From: Okeania hirsuta
GTDB taxonomy: Bacteria; Cyanobacteriota; Cyanobacteriia; Cyanobacteriales; Microcoleaceae
DNA: 54,222 nt
Direction of reading: 5' to 3'
Assembly: GCF_003838195.1 (NCBI RefSeq)
Contig: NZ_RCBY01000024.1
Coordinates: 1 to 54,222 of the forward strand
This document shows, piece by piece, positions 45,875 through 53,964 of this stretch. Made by a program: the position numbers and the translations under genes. The notes under the pieces were generated by a model, which was not told the DNA's origin, made no database searches, and worked only from the letters and a program-made list of their open reading frames with translations. Every line of letters begins with the position of its first letter. The first letter of the stretch is position 1.

Positions 45875-46780
45875 TTAGTAAAAGACACTTAAATGTAAAT
45901 TTTGAGAAATTAGCTCTAAGAGAAATAAACCTACTACAGAATTTCCTTGTTTATCTAGAGGAGGACTATAGCAAACAATTATTCCTGTACTAGGAACTAC
46001 TCCCAAAACAATTCCACTTACACCAGACTTAATTGGAATTCCTATTTTTACAGCATAACAACTTGATGCTTCATACAAACCACAGGTAGTCATTAGCGCT
46101 TTAACTGCACAACAGTGTTTTTTCCACTTAGAGTAAGGATATTTTACTAACAACATTCCTAGATTAGCAAAATCAAAAATTGTGCCAGATAAACAACAGA
46201 TTTGATTATAAGTATCTAGAGCAATTTTCGAGTCTTGAATATAACCAGCTTCTACCAATTTTGCAGCTATAACTTGATTATTATGATTAGGTAAAGACCC
46301 AACAGAAGCTAATATATTTGTATCTAAAAATAATTGACATTTTCCATACTTGTTAAGCCAAGAACAAAAATTTTCACAGCGCTCTTGAGCAGTATTTCCT
46401 GGTAGTAAAGATGATAAAGTGATCGCTCCACTATTAATCATTGGATTTCTTGGCCATCCACCATCAACTTCCAGTTGTTCTAAAGAATTGAAAGGCTTTT
46501 CTGAAGATTCTATTCCTACTCTTTTAAATACAAAATCACTGCCAAATTCACATAATAAGTACAAGAGTAAAAAAGGTTTAATTGCACTCATTAGAGGCAA
46601 CTTTATGTCTACATGACCTAATGAGATAATCTGATTTTCAATACTTTGTAAAACTATGGCAAAATTCTTGGGGTTAACTTCAGCAAGTGAAGGAATATAA
46701 GTAGGTAAATTACCTAGTTTGGTTTTAGTTAATCCTGTTTCTACCCAAGCTGCTAATTGTTGTTTGTCAATGGCTAACAT
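45875..46780 (-). CDS. glsA: Glutaminase
   Basis: Glutaminase hydrolyses glutamine to glutamate and ammonium. This 301-aa protein matches the serine-dependent glutaminase family. It has the catalytic SxxK in LPLMSAIKPFLLL (Ser65, Lys68), WPRNPMINSGAITL with the substrate Asn, YNQICCLSG and GIPIKSGVSGIVLGVVPSTG near the end. The residues around SxxK differ from the common QSISK, but the catalytic Ser and Lys are kept. The Cys content is high. It is convergent with nothing close and lies upstream of repeats; the SDR gene at 46977 diverges from it. Confidence 0.9.
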   Translation of the reverse strand: MLAIDKQQLAAWVETGLTKTKLGNLPTYIPSLAEVNPKNFAIVLQSIENQIISLGHVDIKLPLMSAIKPFLLLYLLCEFGSDFVFKRVGIESSEKPFNSLEQLEVDGGWPRNPMINSGAITLSSLLPGNTAQERCENFCSWLNKYGKCQLFLDTNILASVGSLPNHNNQVIAAKLVEAGYIQDSKIALDTYNQICCLSGTIFDFANLGMLLVKYPYSKWKKHCCAVKALMTTCGLYEASSCYAVKIGIPIKSGVSGIVLGVVPSTGIIVCYSPPLDKQGNSVVGLFLLELISQNLHLSVFY

Positions 46781-46976: not shown

Positions 46977-47666
46977 ATGAAAAAGGTCATTGTTATTACA
47001 GGTATCAGCCGTGGTTTAGGTAAAGCTATGACTGATGAATTTATTAGGTTAGGTCATACTATTATCGGTTGTGCTCGTTCTGCATCTGCTGTTGAAAAAT
47101 TAACTACTAAATATGGTAATCCACATCAGTTTACTTCTGTGAATGTAGCAGATGAAAATTCTGTGCGAGAGTGGGTAACTAAAACATTAAGTCATTATTC
47201 ACCGCCAGATTTATTAATAAATAATGCCGCTATAATTAATCAACCAGGGTCTGTTTGGGAAGTTGATAGTGAGGAATTTTCCCAATTAATTGATATTAAT
47301 ATTAAGGGTGTGGCAAATGTGATGCGTCATTTTCTCCCCGCTATGATTTCTAGAAAGAGCGGAATAATTGTTAATTTTAGTTCTGGGTGGGGACGTTCCA
47401 CTTCTCCACAAGTTGGACCTTATTGTGCTTCAAAATGGGCAATTGAGGGTTTGACTCGTACTTTAGCCCAAGAATTACCATCAGGAATGGCCGCTATTCC
47501 TCTCAACCCTGGAGTTATTCATACTGATATGTTAGATATTTGTTTTGGGGAGGCAGCAAAGTCTTGTACTCCTGTGCAGTCTTGGGTAAAGAAAGCTGTT
47601 CCTTTTTTGTTGAAGTTGAAACCTAGTGATAATGGAATGCCTTTAACTGTTGCTTGCCAGAGCTGA
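46977..47666 (+). CDS. Short-chain dehydrogenase/reductase (SDR)
   Basis: This 229-aa classical SDR has the cofactor motif TGISRGLGKAM (TGxxxGxG), LLINNAAI (NNAG-type), active-site Ser in FSSGWGR, and catalytic YCASK, followed by NPGVIHTDM. The Arg in CARSA just after strand 2 suggests NADPH use (inference). It has no signal or membrane segment. The substrate is not indicated by context; the gene stands alone, divergent from glutaminase. Confidence 0.9.
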   Translation: MKKVIVITGISRGLGKAMTDEFIRLGHTIIGCARSASAVEKLTTKYGNPHQFTSVNVADENSVREWVTKTLSHYSPPDLLINNAAIINQPGSVWEVDSEEFSQLIDINIKGVANVMRHFLPAMISRKSGIIVNFSSGWGRSTSPQVGPYCASKWAIEGLTRTLAQELPSGMAAIPLNPGVIHTDMLDICFGEAAKSCTPVQSWVKKAVPFLLKLKPSDNGMPLTVACQS

Positions 47667-48301: not shown

Positions 48302-48505
48302 ATAATTTCAATATAGCACACAAATCAGAAATTTTCACAATGACTGACAATTTTTTATCTTTATCTTTTGCAAGTTTAATACCCCACCGTCATTTCAATT
48401 ATCAGTTATCAGTTATCAGTTATCAGTACCTCTTGCAATAAGGAGGTTTGACTTTAATTCTGACTTTTGACTTTTGACTTTAATTCTGACTTTTGACTTT
48501 TGACT
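48302..48505. other. Short-repeat tract after the cyclase gene
   Basis: It contains a TTTAATACCCCACCGTC motif near 48373, CAGTTATCAGTTATCAGTTA tandem units (48404-48427) and repeated CTGACTTTTGACTTTTGAC tracts (48460-48525). The last tract reaches into the gene's stop region. Confidence 0.7.
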
Positions 48506-51500
48506 TTAATTCTGACTTTTGACTTCCTCAATATAACTTTTTTTCCCCTGCAAAATATAAGCCTTCATGTAACCCTTACCCTTAATATCAATCAAACCCC
48601 GTTCTGCAAATAAAAATTTGTGCTGTAAAATCTCATAGGTCTGTTCTGTCACTTGGATAACACCTGGTATACCGTGAGACTCCATACGACTAGCAATATT
48701 CACAGTATCACCCCATAAATCGTATATAAATTTTTTACGTCCAATTACACCAGCAACGACTGGGCCAGTATTTATACCAATACGAATATTAAAGTCTTGT
48801 TTCTGTTCATCAGCAAAATAGGATACTTCCTCAAGCATATCTATAGCCATCAGAGCGATCGCCTCAGCATGATTTTCCATTGGGTTTGGCAACCCACCCA
48901 CGACCATATAAGCATCTCCAATAGTTTTAATTTTCTCCAAACCATATTTTTCTGCCAATAAATCAAACCTGGAAAAAATCTCATTCAACCAATAAACTAA
49001 TCTTTGAGGAGTGGCACGACCTGCTAATTCAGTAAACCCTACTAAATCTGCAAATAAAACTGTAACTTCTGCGAATCCTTCTGCAATTGTACTATCACCT
49101 TCTTTCAATCTATCAGCAATAGGTTTCGGCAGAATATTTAACAACAATTTTTCTGACTTTTCCTGTTCTAGGAGCAAAGCTGCTTCTGCTTTTTTACGCT
49201 CAGTTATATCACGACAAAGAGCCAATATTAATTTACCATTCCCTGCTTTTAATAAACCCAAACGTATCTCTACTGGAAAAGTTGTACCATTTTTGCGACG
49301 ATGAATTCCCTCTATAGTCATTGGTGTACCAGGAATTAAATTTTGCCACTTTTCATACATCTTTTCTGATAAAAAATTTACCTCAATATCTTCTATATAT
49401 AAATTCAATAATTCTTCACGTTTATATCCCAAACTTTTACAGGTACTTTGATTAACATCAACAATTTTGCCATTCATTTCATAGATAATAAAAGCATCTG
49501 CAGCTTGTTCCATTACAGATCTAAATCTTTCCTCACTTTCCCGCAATGCTGCCTCTGCTAGTTTCCTTTCAGTAATATCTCTTAAGGCCGCTACTCTATT
49601 TTTATTACCACGATAAAAAAATATTTTAGCCTCTATTTCTAAAGGAAAAGTAGACTCATCCTTTCTTACTCCAACTACTTCATAAGGTTTTTCATATCCA
49701 GAAGCAATTTTTTCTAATACGAAATCCTGATATTCTGGGGTTATTAAATCAAAGGTATTCATTCCAATCATTTCTGATAATTCATATCTAAACATTTGGG
49801 CAGCAGCGATATTTATTTCTACAATTTTTCCTTGTTCATGAATCATAATCCCTTCAAAGGTAGCTCTAGATAAACTCCGAAATCTTTGCTCATTTTCCTT
49901 GAGCTTTATTTCTGATTCCTTTCTATCTGTAATATCTCTAAAAGTTCCTGTGTAGAAAGTTTTTTGATTAAATTTTACTTCTCTGAGTGCAATTTCCATG
50001 GGAAATAGGGAACCATCTGCACGGATACCAACTAATTCGTAAAGGTTTCCACTGTCAGCAATTTTAGATATCAGTTGTTCTATATAATAATGTTGTTGAT
50101 CGCTTTTTTTTTGTAGCTCCGACTCTGTTTGAATATCTACTAAATTTTCCTCTAGTAAATGCAAAAAGCTAGGGAAAAAAGATTGCCAATTTTCCGGTTG
50201 AATATCTTGCAAATCAAACACATAACAATAATTTTTAATTTCTAAACTTTGATAAAATATCAAATCTGGATTAATCCATAGTTTTAATGTTTCTACAGTT
50301 AATTCTTCTACTTCAGTTAATAAATGTTTGGTATCCATTTTTTCCATAGTCAATGGATTAATAGTAAAGTCAAATATTTGATAAATAGACCTCCCTATTA
50401 AGTCTTGATTTTCATAGCCAAAAATTTCCGAGGCACTAGGATTTATACTAATAATCTCAAGCTCTGGGTTAGTAAAAGTAATAATTGCATCTGTTGCTAC
50501 TTTGATAATGGCATCATTTCTCGCAGTAACTTCCTCCAAAATATCCATTACCTGATTGTAACGATTTGCAATTTGACCTACTTCTGTAAAAGGTTCTACA
50601 GGCACTCGCAAACTTAAATCTTGTGTACGAGCTTGAGAATCCATTACTCTAAATAAATCTAATATTTCTGTTTTAGCCCGATGCTCCGAAACATTTAAAC
50701 CGATATGTTCATCTGCTTGTGAAACTCGGAAAAAATAAAGTTTATTTGTAATGAATAAAATTGGATATACCAAACAAAATCCTAATAGAAAAGCCGCAAA
50801 AATTCCTAATAACTGAACAGTCAATTGTTGGCTAAAACTAAGACCAGTATCTAAAACCTCCGCCTTCCCAAAAAAAGCTACTGCTAATGTTCCCCAAATA
50901 CCTCCACCAAGGTGAACTGGAATAGCTCCAACAGCATCATCGACTCGAATTTTTTCTAAAGCTTGCTCTACCAACATAGTGACTATGGCAGCAATAATAC
51001 CAATCAAAATAGCAGAAAAAGCTGTAACAGCATGACAAGCTGCTGTAATGCCAACTAAACCAGAAAGAGTACCATTAATTAGTCCCTCAACACTGGGTAT
51101 TCCTCTGATATACCAAGTAATACCAAGAGTAGTAATCATTCCTGCTGCACTAGCAAGAATAGTATTAACAATAATGCCTGCCACTTGTTCGTTTAATTCC
51201 AAGGTACTTCCACCATTAAACCCAAACCAACCAAACCAAATCAGCATTGCCCCCAAAACTGATAGGGGTAAATTAGAACCATGAATTTTTTCTGGTGGAC
51301 GACCAGGAGGAAATCTACCTGTTCGAGGACCAATAACTAATAAAGTTGCCAGAGATACCCACCCACCAATACTATGGACAACACTTGAACCTGCGAAGTC
51401 AACAAAACCATTATCTCCAAGCCAACCTGTTAATATACCAATATCAGCTCCATTCCAAACCCAATGACCAAATATGGGATAGACCAAACCTGAAACTAGA

Positions 51501-52156
51501 GAGGCGACAAATAGATAGGAGGAATATTTCATACGTTCAGCTACTGCACCAGAAACGATCGTCGTAGCTGTACCACAGAACATTAATTGAAATAAAAAGA
51601 AGGCCGCATCAAAAGCTTGTAGATCGGTTGCCAGGAAAAATTTACTATGGCCAATTATTCCAGAAGATGAAGACCCAAACATGAAGGCAAATCCAAAACT
51701 CCAAAAGCAGGCAACTGAAATACCAAAATCAGTGAAGTTTTTAATAGCAACATTAATGCTATTTTTTGACCTGGTGAGTCCTGACTCTAAACACATAAAT
51801 CCAGGTTGCATGATAAATACTAACCCAGAACAAAGTAATATCCACAAAATATCAATTGCTTCGTAGGTAGGTTGAGATGGGGAAGTTGATATATTTTTCA
51901 GTCTGGATTGATTTTTTCTAGGAATAACAGTTTGAGTATTATGAAAATTTTGGGGTTCTATAAACTGTAATTCTGGGGATTGATAAAAGTAAGAATTTTC
52001 TAAGTCTAAATTAGAAATTTGCTGTATTGTACCTTTTTTTATCTGATTTGATAATTGATGATTTTGTATATATTTATCTGTTAGTGACCCATGTAAAATA
52101 GTTAATGCCAGGGTCAGCAAGAATAAAATAATCCCTAAAATGGATTTTCCATGCAT
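48506..52156 (-). CDS. Ammonium transporter-PAS-adenylate cyclase fusion
   Basis: This 1216-aa protein has an N-terminal anchor (residues 5-25) and an Amt ammonium channel domain at about 99-478. It keeps WVWNGADIGIL, Asp253 and pore His261 in DFAGSSVVHSIGG, and the second pore His415 in AIPVHLGGGIWGTLA. A HAMP-like linker follows (LSLRVPVEPFTEVGQIANRY, about 513-532). Three PAS units come next (545-742 with a long insert, 753-864, 874-990), ending in GTFRDITDRK, ALRDITERK and LCRDITERK. The class III cyclase (1028-1200) has metal Asp1037 (FADLVGFT) and Asp1081 (TIGDAYM). Lys1077 and Asp1146 are adenine-type residues, and Asn1153 and Arg1157 (NIASRM) are the transition-state pair. All catalytic positions seem intact. 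The design implies that ammonium binding or flux controls cAMP synthesis (inference). Confidence 0.93.
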   Translation of the reverse strand: MHGKSILGIILFLLTLALTILHGSLTDKYIQNHQLSNQIKKGTIQQISNLDLENSYFYQSPELQFIEPQNFHNTQTVIPRKNQSRLKNISTSPSQPTYEAIDILWILLCSGLVFIMQPGFMCLESGLTRSKNSINVAIKNFTDFGISVACFWSFGFAFMFGSSSSGIIGHSKFFLATDLQAFDAAFFLFQLMFCGTATTIVSGAVAERMKYSSYLFVASLVSGLVYPIFGHWVWNGADIGILTGWLGDNGFVDFAGSSVVHSIGGWVSLATLLVIGPRTGRFPPGRPPEKIHGSNLPLSVLGAMLIWFGWFGFNGGSTLELNEQVAGIIVNTILASAAGMITTLGITWYIRGIPSVEGLINGTLSGLVGITAACHAVTAFSAILIGIIAAIVTMLVEQALEKIRVDDAVGAIPVHLGGGIWGTLAVAFFGKAEVLDTGLSFSQQLTVQLLGIFAAFLLGFCLVYPILFITNKLYFFRVSQADEHIGLNVSEHRAKTEILDLFRVMDSQARTQDLSLRVPVEPFTEVGQIANRYNQVMDILEEVTARNDAIIKVATDAIITFTNPELEIISINPSASEIFGYENQDLIGRSIYQIFDFTINPLTMEKMDTKHLLTEVEELTVETLKLWINPDLIFYQSLEIKNYCYVFDLQDIQPENWQSFFPSFLHLLEENLVDIQTESELQKKSDQQHYYIEQLISKIADSGNLYELVGIRADGSLFPMEIALREVKFNQKTFYTGTFRDITDRKESEIKLKENEQRFRSLSRATFEGIMIHEQGKIVEINIAAAQMFRYELSEMIGMNTFDLITPEYQDFVLEKIASGYEKPYEVVGVRKDESTFPLEIEAKIFFYRGNKNRVAALRDITERKLAEAALRESEERFRSVMEQAADAFIIYEMNGKIVDVNQSTCKSLGYKREELLNLYIEDIEVNFLSEKMYEKWQNLIPGTPMTIEGIHRRKNGTTFPVEIRLGLLKAGNGKLILALCRDITERKKAEAALLLEQEKSEKLLLNILPKPIADRLKEGDSTIAEGFAEVTVLFADLVGFTELAGRATPQRLVYWLNEIFSRFDLLAEKYGLEKIKTIGDAYMVVGGLPNPMENHAEAIALMAIDMLEEVSYFADEQKQDFNIRIGINTGPVVAGVIGRKKFIYDLWGDTVNIASRMESHGIPGVIQVTEQTYEILQHKFLFAERGLIDIKGKGYMKAYILQGKKSYIEEVKSQN

Positions 52157-52317
52157 GGCTTCGGATCTTAGAGCTGATTTATCAAGTAAATATTAAGAGG
52201 CTGAATTTATGGCAATACAAAGGTTTTTGGAGTTATAGCCCAATCATACCTAAATCCCTGAGAGTTAGATGAAATAAGGGTTTTAGCTAAGTTTACAAAT
52301 CAGCTCTTACAGAGTAG

Positions 52318-52519
52318 CGGGACTTTGATATTTTTGACGGTGAAAATGGCTTCAAATTCAACATTAGCAAGGAAAATACATCAACAGGTTCAAAATGGCT
52401 CTTTGCGTAGCATTCCGCAGGAAAACTTAGATATATCAATAAATAGGCTATTTTGACGTTAAAGAATTACACAGTAAGGATTCAAGGCTATTTTTAATTG
52501 ATTTTTTGCTAAAGTCCCA
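52318..52519. mobile_element. MITE-like GGGACTTT element (copy 2)
   Basis: It starts CGGGACTTTGATATTTTTG and ends TTTTTTGCTAAAGTCCCAG, imperfect inverted repeats. It shares GCAAGGAAAATACATCAA with copy 1. A foreign TTTGCGTAGCATTCCGCAGG unit interrupts its middle. Confidence 0.7.
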
Positions 52520-52722
52520 GTAGCTAAAGCGATCGCCGACATATTTGGCTAGCATGACCTAGGAAAAAGCGGAGCTGCTCTACACTCTTCGGGTCTCCTC
52601 GCCATATCCAATCGACTAAGAGAACAGAAAAAAATCATTTTATTCAATTCTATAGTTTTCATGTAAGGTAATTGTTAATTGCGAATTATTAATTGTTTAC
52701 CACTAATTTAGAACAGAAAAAG

Positions 52723-53032
52723 TAAGTACCTGTGCAAAATTCATTTAATATTTGTAAGTAGGGAACAGAAAATCAAATACAGTACTTTTCAAGTAAGTAA
52801 TGTCTAACGGTAGAATAATAATATTCATTTATTAAAATCATAATTGGATAATCTGTACATCATAAACCTGCAATATATTGTATTTTTGATGTAAAATTCA
52901 GTTATTAGCTACTAATTATTTCAATACTCAAATCCTCTCTAGGCAAAGACCTTAATTTTTTAAAATGTTGCTTTAGTAAATACGATTTGGTATTAGTTGT
53001 AAATAGAAAAATCATTTTACCTACCTACTTAA
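52723..53032. repeat. TAAGTA...TACCTACCTACTTAA repeat (copy 2)
   Basis: It starts TAAGTACCTGTGCAAAATTCA and ends TCATTTTACCTACCTACTTAA, like 41385-41580 but longer (310 bp). The interiors share a GGGAACAGAAAAT block. Confidence 0.5.
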
Positions 53033-53049
53033 TAAATTCATACATAAAA

Positions 53050-53090
53050 CAAAGCAATCAGCAATTTTTAGTTTTTCGCTGATTGCTTTA
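53050..53090 (-). terminator. Intrinsic terminator after the peptidoglycan-binding gene
   Basis: AAAGCAATCAGC and GCTGATTGCTTT form a 12-bp perfect stem with A/T-rich flanks. It lies about 77 bp beyond the stop codon of the gene at 53167. Confidence 0.88.
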
Positions 53091-53166
53091 TATAAAGTGG
53101 GCATATTTTTGATAAAATTATGGTTAGATAAGCAGTCTATTGCAAGACAGTAAAAGTTTGAGTATT

Positions 53167-53964
53167 TTACTTCTCGCTGAAAGCTTCCCAAGTCTTTCGA
53201 TCCACTATACCACTAACCTTAATTCCTTTATATTTTTGAAATTTTTTAACTGCCCCTGTGGTTTTTCTTCCAAAAAAACCATCAATTGGACCCGGATTAA
53301 AACCCATTGTTTCTAAACGAATTTGTAAGGTTTTAACTTTAGACCCCTTGTCTCCTTTTGCTAATATCTTTTCTATTTGGATGGGTGGGTTTTGCCTTGA
53401 AATTGATGGTTTTTCTCTTTGAGTTTGTGGACGAGAGGCAAATGAAGGTTTAGCCAGAGCTGTCCAAGTAGCTTCATTAACTATACCTGTTACACTTAAG
53501 CCTACAGACTTTTGAAAAGCTTTTACTGCTTCTTTGGTGCGAGTACCAAACACACTATCTACAGCTCCAGGGTCGAAACCTCTAGCTTGCAAACGTCTTT
53601 GTACTGCCCAGACTTCTGCGCCTCGAGAACCCTGTGATATATTCTTTTGATTATTCTGTTTTTTAGGTGCACCTGAATAGAATGGTTTAGAGAATAATTC
53701 AGGTTGAGCAGGTTTACCTAAAAATCTGATATTTCCACCAATAAAGGGTATCCGAAAGTTGTGATTTTTCTGTCTTTGCCACAGTTTATTTTTGTTAGTA
53801 TTTTTTTCACCAGAAGTGGAAGTCTCTAAATTAGACTTGCTAGTTAAATCTTCTTCTTTTTCTGTTACTAAAGATTCTGTTTTCTTGGAAGCAACAGCTT
53901 TGCCTTGAGTAAAAGTAAACAGAGCTACTAAACTTAATAGAGCAGTAATAGTAGGGATACGCAT
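53167..53964 (-). CDS. Exported protein with two peptidoglycan-binding domains
   Basis: This 265-aa protein has a signal peptide (ITALLSLVALFTFTQGKAVA) and a basic, low-complexity segment (about 30-105). Two PG_binding_1 domains follow at about 108-170 (GAEVWAVQRRLQARGFDPGA, FGTRTKEAVKAFQKSVGL) and 203-263 (GSKVKTLQIRLETMGFNPGP, FGRKTTGAVKKFQKYKGI). There is no catalytic domain, so it probably anchors to or organises the cell wall. The two domains look like an internal duplication. It is alone, with a terminator downstream and an AATTAGGG element upstream. Confidence 0.9.
   Translation of the reverse strand: MRIPTITALLSLVALFTFTQGKAVASKKTESLVTEKEEDLTSKSNLETSTSGEKNTNKNKLWQRQKNHNFRIPFIGGNIRFLGKPAQPELFSKPFYSGAPKKQNNQKNISQGSRGAEVWAVQRRLQARGFDPGAVDSVFGTRTKEAVKAFQKSVGLSVTGIVNEATWTALAKPSFASRPQTQREKPSISRQNPPIQIEKILAKGDKGSKVKTLQIRLETMGFNPGPIDGFFGRKTTGAVKKFQKYKGIKVSGIVDRKTWEAFSEK

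Follow-up and report, generated by a model that had tools for sequence, protein, structure and literature searches.

An Amt-kinase receptor has already been published: Ks-Amt5 of Kuenenia stuttgartiensis (PDB 6eu6), an Amt head followed by a C-terminal signalling domain (PMC5764959). According to the sections of that paper used here, the fused kinase changes its activity in response to ammonium, which is not translocated, the pore histidines are retained, and the kinase output comes with no PAS or HAMP domain (PMC5764959). Where natural fusions come up in the portions consulted of PMC10433425 and PMC12918730, both concerned with how ammonium is transported and sensed, Ks-Amt5 is the sole example named. 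A second receptor, Sd-Amt1 of Shewanella denitrificans, is represented by structures in the OFF (PDB 8qj3) and ON (PDB 8qj4) states. The gene considered here lies on contig NZ_RCBY01000024.1 of the cyanobacterium Okeania hirsuta (assembly GCF_003838195.1), within a stretch of 54,222 nucleotides that was analysed as a whole (the window), and joins an Amt domain to PAS units and a class III cyclase. Unlike this cyclase, the output of Sd-Amt1 is presumably a GGDEF (diguanylate cyclase) domain.

The protein is read here, with a probability of roughly 0.62, as a receptor-type adenylate cyclase that would use a repurposed ammonium channel as its sensor. This reading is based on domain order, catalytic residues, placement in a receptor clade, and conservation; with it, we infer the ammonium ligand, the coupling, cyclic AMP (cAMP) as the product, and a trimer-to-dimer arrangement. 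Full-text literature searches on Amt fusions, with subscription papers outside their scope, yielded no paper recognised as describing an Amt-cyclase. As far as searched, a known head and a known enzyme form a new pairing.

Domain order and range of the gene

Translation of the open reading frame (ORF) gives a single open frame from ATG to stop, and its product carries, from the N to the C terminus, a complete Amt domain, a HAMP-like linker, three PAS units, and a class III cyclase. Pfam matches Ammonium_transp (E 4.5e-119, profile positions 1-397 of 399), PAS_9 in three stretches, and Guanylate_cyc (E 3.6e-64, profile positions 4-183 of 183), each far above its cut-off. NCBIfam adds four PAS S-box stretches and a match to TIGR00836 ('ammonium transporter') that exceeds the cut-off. 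The first-pass annotation of this DNA had described a single frame that encodes a complete Amt domain, PAS units, and a class III cyclase, and the ORF and Pfam results bear this out. Its positions for Asp253 and the pore histidines (261 and 415) are right by alignment to Ks-Amt5 and to the family, and the metal aspartates and Lys/Asp adenine selectors that it had claimed are likewise in place (D1037 and D1081, K1077 and D1146).

Copies were sought in 39 genomes (the window's own included), in a family survey of 61 genomes, and in stretches fetched from these. An open frame over the Amt-PAS-cyclase order, called type A below, was found in ten genomes including the window's; three were scanned with Pfam and the rest judged by alignment to the window protein. 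The species range of this order, which the earlier annotation had proposed to map, spans in these searches nine genomes of one family (the window's, G001 with a second copy of 1151 amino acids (aa), G002, G003, G004, G010, G011, G016, and G440) and one of another family (G030), where the frame of 1197 aa reaches the contig end. Other copies are damaged or incomplete: the first copy of G001 is split into two frames and includes a tract of undetermined bases, that of G008 is broken, that of G437 shows frame changes, and those of G005 and G021 run off contig ends. The second, open copy of G001 (L141, G001:C118) is 79% identical to the window's and lies beside the interrupted first one. In an even draw over the phylum, 30 of 386 genomes carry a receptor-type Amt at E <= 1e-100, and three of these 30 (G000, which is the window's, G010, and G030) have the Amt-PAS-cyclase architecture.

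The gene is under purifying selection. The ratio of nonsynonymous to synonymous substitution rates (dN/dS) over the whole frame, obtained by a simple counting method, is 0.25-0.29 between the window and five relatives. Divided by part over five pairs, it is 0.11-0.23 for the Amt domain, 0.10-0.27 for the cyclase, 0-0.33 for the linker, and 0.30-0.60 for the PAS units, where the value of 0.60 stems from a pair with very few changes. An insert within the first PAS unit changes fast, with 53-96% identity in same-family copies and 18% in G030. The segment directly ahead of the cyclase (residues 995-1025) aligns to the one preceding the second catalytic domain of adenylate cyclase 9.

Table 1. Parts of the Amt-PAS-cyclase gene, in window coordinates
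Feature	Position	Strand	Residues or length	Basis and remarks
Whole gene: Amt - HAMP-like linker - PAS x3 - class III cyclase	48506..52156	-	1216 aa	ORF and Pfam
N-terminal hydrophobic stretch, likely signal peptide or extra membrane helix	52085..52144	-	~5-24	By eye
Amt domain	50672..51847	-	104-495	Pfam, alignments; model mostly pLDDT > 90; W234, D253, H261, H415
HAMP-like linker, helix-loop-helix	50522..50671	-	496-545	Alignment and model, pLDDT ~74-85
PAS-A, split by insert	49907..50521	-	546-750	Pfam/NCBIfam; limits by eye
Fast-changing insert within PAS-A	50057..50326	-	~611-700	Alignment; limits by eye
PAS-B	49553..49906	-	751-868	Pfam/NCBIfam; limits by eye
PAS-C	49175..49552	-	869-994	Pfam/NCBIfam
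Helical transducer ahead of cyclase	49082..49174	-	995-1025	Alignment
Class III adenylate cyclase domain (predicted)	48545..49081	-	1026-1204	Pfam, alignments, tree; D1037, K1077, D1081, D1146, N1153, R1157

Amt head, linker, and catalytic residues

The relationships of the Amt head were examined in a tree of 72 Amt domains, with rows picked from the fetched sequences (L035 was omitted as truncated) and 18 stand-alone Amts chosen as a subset of those fetched. The ten type-A rows, comprising nine full-length sequences and the fragment L141, form one clade with support of 100/97. They fall within a larger clade of 51 rows (99/98) that takes in both Sd-Amt1 and Ks-Amt5; all 18 stand-alone rows lie outside it.

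Structural comparison agrees with this placement. By sequence, the top PDB match is 8qj3/8qj4 (E 5.1e-119); it covers residues 104-541 of the query and thus extends into the linker. A structure model of residues 96-620 was built from 29 sequences, with a mean predicted local distance difference test (pLDDT) score of 87.7. In a Foldseek search with this model, 'Receptor Sd-Amt1 (OFF-state)' and '(ON-state)' rank first, with a template modelling (TM) score of 0.95 by target length and 46% identity, followed by Ks-Amt5 and then by the transporters Af-Amt1 and AmtB. As in Amt-headed ammonium receptors, a complete Amt fold is joined in frame to a signalling domain (Pfam and model). These comparisons identify the Amt head as receptor-type. 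Sd-Amt1 shares with it the fold and a related linker as far as residue 541, while Ks-Amt5, at 39% identity, shares the general plan of an Amt head with a C-terminal signalling domain and belongs to a separate subclade.

The linker is 80-100% identical across the copies of ten relatives, and other cyanobacterial Amt receptors have a recognisable version of it. In the model, the Amt fold is followed by a helix (497-511), a loop, and a long helix (525-571) at pLDDT ~74-85, dropping near the end. The stretch '...DLSLRVPVEPFTEVGQIA.RYNQVM..' is closely similar in cyanobacterial receptors with differing outputs and is lost in HisKA_3 kinases. Assignment of the linker to the Pfam HAMP family was considered and rejected: Pfam matches no family at residues 485-560 of the window protein, and the HAMP matches in L124, L130, and L133 lie ~65-110 residues past the Amt domain, beyond the linker. 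A relative, L032, does have a below-cut-off HAMP match at the equivalent position. Because a Pfam HAMP is absent here, the linker is called only 'HAMP-like', a name that rests on the helix-loop-helix of the model.

At the other end of the protein, D1037, K1077, D1081, D1146, N1153, and R1157 are all present by alignment; we take these to be the metal, adenine, and transition-state residues of class III cyclases. The set D, K, D, D, N, R is complete in all nine full-length copies, or in 10/10 when G440 is counted. Lys/Asp purine selectors are the adenine pair, and Lys/Thr selectors mark CyaC-type (class IIIb) cyclases. The CyaC-type Lys/Thr pair is absent from the window protein, which has D1146. 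The domain therefore fits a class III adenylate cyclase and is a predicted maker of cAMP.

The proposed signal path and its rivals

Membership of the receptor family makes ammonium the likely ligand. External ammonium would bind in the Amt vestibule, the Amt trimer would change conformation, and the HAMP-like linker and PAS chain would relay the change to the cyclase; the PAS chain may contribute a second, cytoplasmic signal. Two cyclase domains would pair to convert ATP to cAMP, so that cAMP would rise or fall and work through the cell's cyclic-nucleotide-binding regulators (the genome, of 8.8 Mb in 716 contigs, has 15 cyclic-nucleotide-binding matches). The three-to-two symmetry could be accommodated if two trimers dimerised or if each trimer held one cyclase pair. 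If the reading is true, a channel of three-fold symmetry must control a two-fold cyclase in the type-A protein, which is a clean structural problem.

The same reading would have outside ammonium converted directly into a cell-wide signal, a question testable with one gene. The earlier suggestion that the organism may fix nitrogen is strengthened by a consecutive run of nifB, a nifS-like gene, nifU, nifH, nifD, and nifK (nifB, nifU, nifH, nifD, and nifK by NCBIfam, nifS by eye).

Several observations weigh against this reading. The Amt-chemoreceptor proteins L044 and L063 sit outside the 51-row receptor clade, so fusion alone does not define that clade. The sections of the Ks-Amt5 paper used here place two ammonium ions in a pocket of Q24, E31, N47, D50, T51, T109, and T112, and describe F27, Y30, and F34 as helping to close the pore (PMC5764959). 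By alignment, the window equivalents of the pocket are Q117, E124, N140, D143, F144, T199, and S202: five of the seven residues match those of Ks-Amt5 (Q, E, N, D, T), S202 is a conservative replacement for threonine, and T51 is replaced by F, as in Sd-Amt1. Even the shared Q, E, N, and D are jointly present in nine of the 18 stand-alone Amts, and for that reason the site residues were rejected as proof of sensing. The pore-closing residues correspond to F120, L123, and L127 (F, F, and N in Sd-Amt1), so both Y30 and F34 have given way to leucine, and the pore may be less closed than that of Ks-Amt5. The genome also holds 24 class III cyclase matches, fragments included, which would dilute any global effect. 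Lastly, the NtcA consensus GTAN8TAC is absent from the gap upstream of the gene. Over the window, it occurs 12 times against 10.04 expected, and CRP-like sites occur 21 times against 25.69 expected; a promoter scan of 52100-53200 gave three sites, compared with 5.2 in shuffles.

One rival is a transceptor, in which the Amt domain would still carry ammonium and flux, rather than mere binding, would control the cyclase. Transport is conceivable since the site residues are shared with half of the stand-alone rows and two of the three residues that close the pore of Ks-Amt5, in the sections cited (PMC5764959), are leucines here. All pore residues examined are present, with W234 and F193 also in place by alignment to Ks-Amt5 and the family. 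That the pore histidines are intact fits sensing as well as transport, because Ks-Amt5 retains both without translocating ammonium. A transceptor is nonetheless rather unlikely: the Amt head groups with receptors, apart from the 18 stand-alone rows, and the genome has a separate intact Amt gene (485 aa), whose contig carries a PII gene as well.

That the PAS domains are the true sensors (of redox, oxygen, light, or a metabolite), with the Amt domain as a membrane anchor or vestige, appears improbable. There are three PAS units, and in four of five pairs they have the highest dN/dS of any part, as for adapting sensors; the exception is the G002 pair, in which the short linker exceeds them. Set against this, the Amt domain is constrained nearly as strongly as the cyclase (lower dN/dS in two of the five pairs, higher in three), a complete pore would be needless for a mere anchor, and in some related proteins (e.g. 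L016, L119, L121, and L122), which have no PAS match, the Amt head and its linker lead straight into a kinase.

The Lys/Asp selectors of all ten copies, as the adenine pair, make cyclic GMP (cGMP) a very improbable product, even though one cyanobacterial cyclase, Cya2 of Synechocystis, makes cGMP according to a review (PMC10117731). A non-functional gene or an assembly artefact, the latter named in the first-pass annotation as grounds for abandoning its reading, is barely credible despite the broken, cut, and contig-edge copies described above, since ten genomes, one of them of another family, have an open frame over the same order and dN/dS is low, which rules out a joining artefact.

Other Amt-headed proteins and a second cyclase architecture

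A Pfam scan covered 51 Amt-headed frames, the window's included, which are not a random sample and from which the stand-alone L101 and L103 of the same genome were left uncounted. The outputs are a histidine kinase in 22 (among them L035, with an ATPase match without a HisKA match), a class III cyclase in 11, SpoIIE in six, a chemoreceptor domain (MCP) in three, GGDEF or GGDEF-EAL in two (L021 and L023), and none recognised in seven. The kinase and GGDEF fusions that the earlier annotation had offered as parallels thus both occur, but the set is wider than it supposed, extending to SpoIIE, chemoreceptor domains, and a second cyclase architecture. The Amt-kinase case thereby widens to a principle, with one Amt head placed before kinases, cyclases, phosphatases, diguanylate cyclases, and chemoreceptor domains. 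A separate group of 24 Amt frames with long C-terminal extensions (from the best 80 of 594 matches) contained no cyclase among the 15 scanned with Pfam; the other nine, outside the scan, are all from Pelagibacteraceae and have lengths like that of L026 (SpoIIE).

Three of the 11 cyclase frames are type A. The remaining eight (type B: L144, L146, L206, L207, L209, L210, L213, and L220), from other cyanobacteria, have the order Amt-HisKA-HATPase-REC-cyclase, which L145 and L208 also appear to have, judged by sequence. Further cases come from a survey of the class, in which 66 of 388 genomes match L146 at E <= 1e-150. Type-B proteins, presumably 'CyaC-like', resemble the window protein in that a single frame encodes both a receptor-type Amt head and a class III cyclase; they differ in that the signal would pass through phosphotransfer and in their Lys/Thr cyclase, which does not share a clade with that of the window protein.

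This separation comes from a tree of ten type-A and nine type-B cyclase domains with 17 paralogues from the window's genome. The type-A domains group with four of the paralogues (L153, L154, L156, and L157; 100/100), and the type-B domains with the other thirteen. A joint clade of both types is rejected by the approximately unbiased (AU) test (p 2e-5); some own-genome rows in this tree have long branches. Like the window protein, L153 has PAS units; unlike it, none of the four has an Amt match on its contig. The selectors are Lys/Asp in 10/10 type-A rows and Lys/Thr in 9/9 type-B rows, but four own-genome Lys/Asp cyclases (L165, L167, L168, and L169) fall on the type-B side, so the selectors alone do not separate the lineages. 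Type A has support of 91/91, whereas type B is not one group and may therefore have more than one origin.

The Amt tree is sensitive to sampling on this point. With three type-B rows, a single clade of both types is not rejected (AU p 0.169); with nine rows of each type and the linker included, it is (p 4e-37). The latter tree kept 50 rows, with near-copies and far clades dropped, and in it kinase rows (among them L218, cut off at a contig edge) are interspersed with the type-B rows, so that the rejection covers strict monophyly but does not extend to a single origin followed by losses. The tree of cyclase domains is the firmer result on separate origins, and on it a single origin of both architectures was set aside. 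Because the two types carry cyclase domains of different lineage, cyanobacteria would have acquired the cyclase output at least twice, and the Amt-cyclase pairing seems to have arisen twice within them. The stronger proposition, that a direct ammonium-to-cAMP receptor was invented at least twice, by placing the Amt head and linker on a PAS and Lys/Asp cyclase and on a CyaC-like kinase-receiver-cyclase, is tentative; through both, nitrogen supply, or ammonium leaked by the cell's own nitrogen fixation, would join a single cAMP pool already reporting inorganic carbon. It is held with the odds leaning somewhat against this proposition.

Other Amt-headed proteins have features of their own. The Amt-MCP fusions in Vibrio, Orenia, and Halonatronum (L032:5905-8169, L044:5896-8142, and L063:955-3192) are possible ammonium chemoreceptors. 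SpoIIE-type phosphatases follow the Amt head in cyanobacteria (L112, L115, and L010) and in Pelagibacteraceae (L026, L027, and L071), and in L071 a second Amt-headed frame lies beside the first. Six cyanobacterial receptor-type Amts of 523-593 aa (L128, L129, L130, L132, L133, and L124) keep the linker and have no output recognised by Pfam; they may signal through a partner, and the HAMP matches beyond the linker in L124, L130, and L133 are weak. Among larger proteins, L214:640-4710 combines a kinase-receiver with an AAA-like domain, L217:704-5434 has GAF/PAS/kinase domains and two receivers, and L219:978-5972 has two kinase units.

Besides the 485-aa gene, the window's genome has an intact, divergent Amt gene of 600 aa, one broken copy, and one weak below-cut-off match. 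The divergent protein (G000:C1; L103:1477-3276, L187) has a branch length of 4.3; its pore residues are conserved, its C-terminal stretch matches nothing in Pfam, and its gene directly precedes a GTPase-like gene (by eye). Of three PII matches, one shares the contig of the 485-aa Amt and one is a fragment that adjoins the broken Amt gene, like a decayed pair (G000:C361; L104, L105, L201, L204).

The surroundings of the Amt-cyclase gene are partly conserved. Short-chain dehydrogenase and glutaminase genes stay on the same side of it in six of seven same-family stretches (L136-L142), and a receiver gene next, with a peptidoglycan-binding gene on the opposite side, occurs in five of the seven. 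The peptidoglycan-binding gene is unmatched in L137 within the 1.7 kb of contig present there, and L139 stops at a contig edge on the glutaminase side. In the window, the glutaminase (45875-46780) and short-chain dehydrogenase (46977-47666) genes adjoin the Amt-cyclase gene; glutaminase frees ammonium, and a functional link is speculative. At the gene end, short direct repeats at 48380-48530 (TTATCAG-like and GACTTTTGACTTT-like, by eye) reach and overlap the stop codon, and the last few residues of the protein are encoded by a direct repeat.

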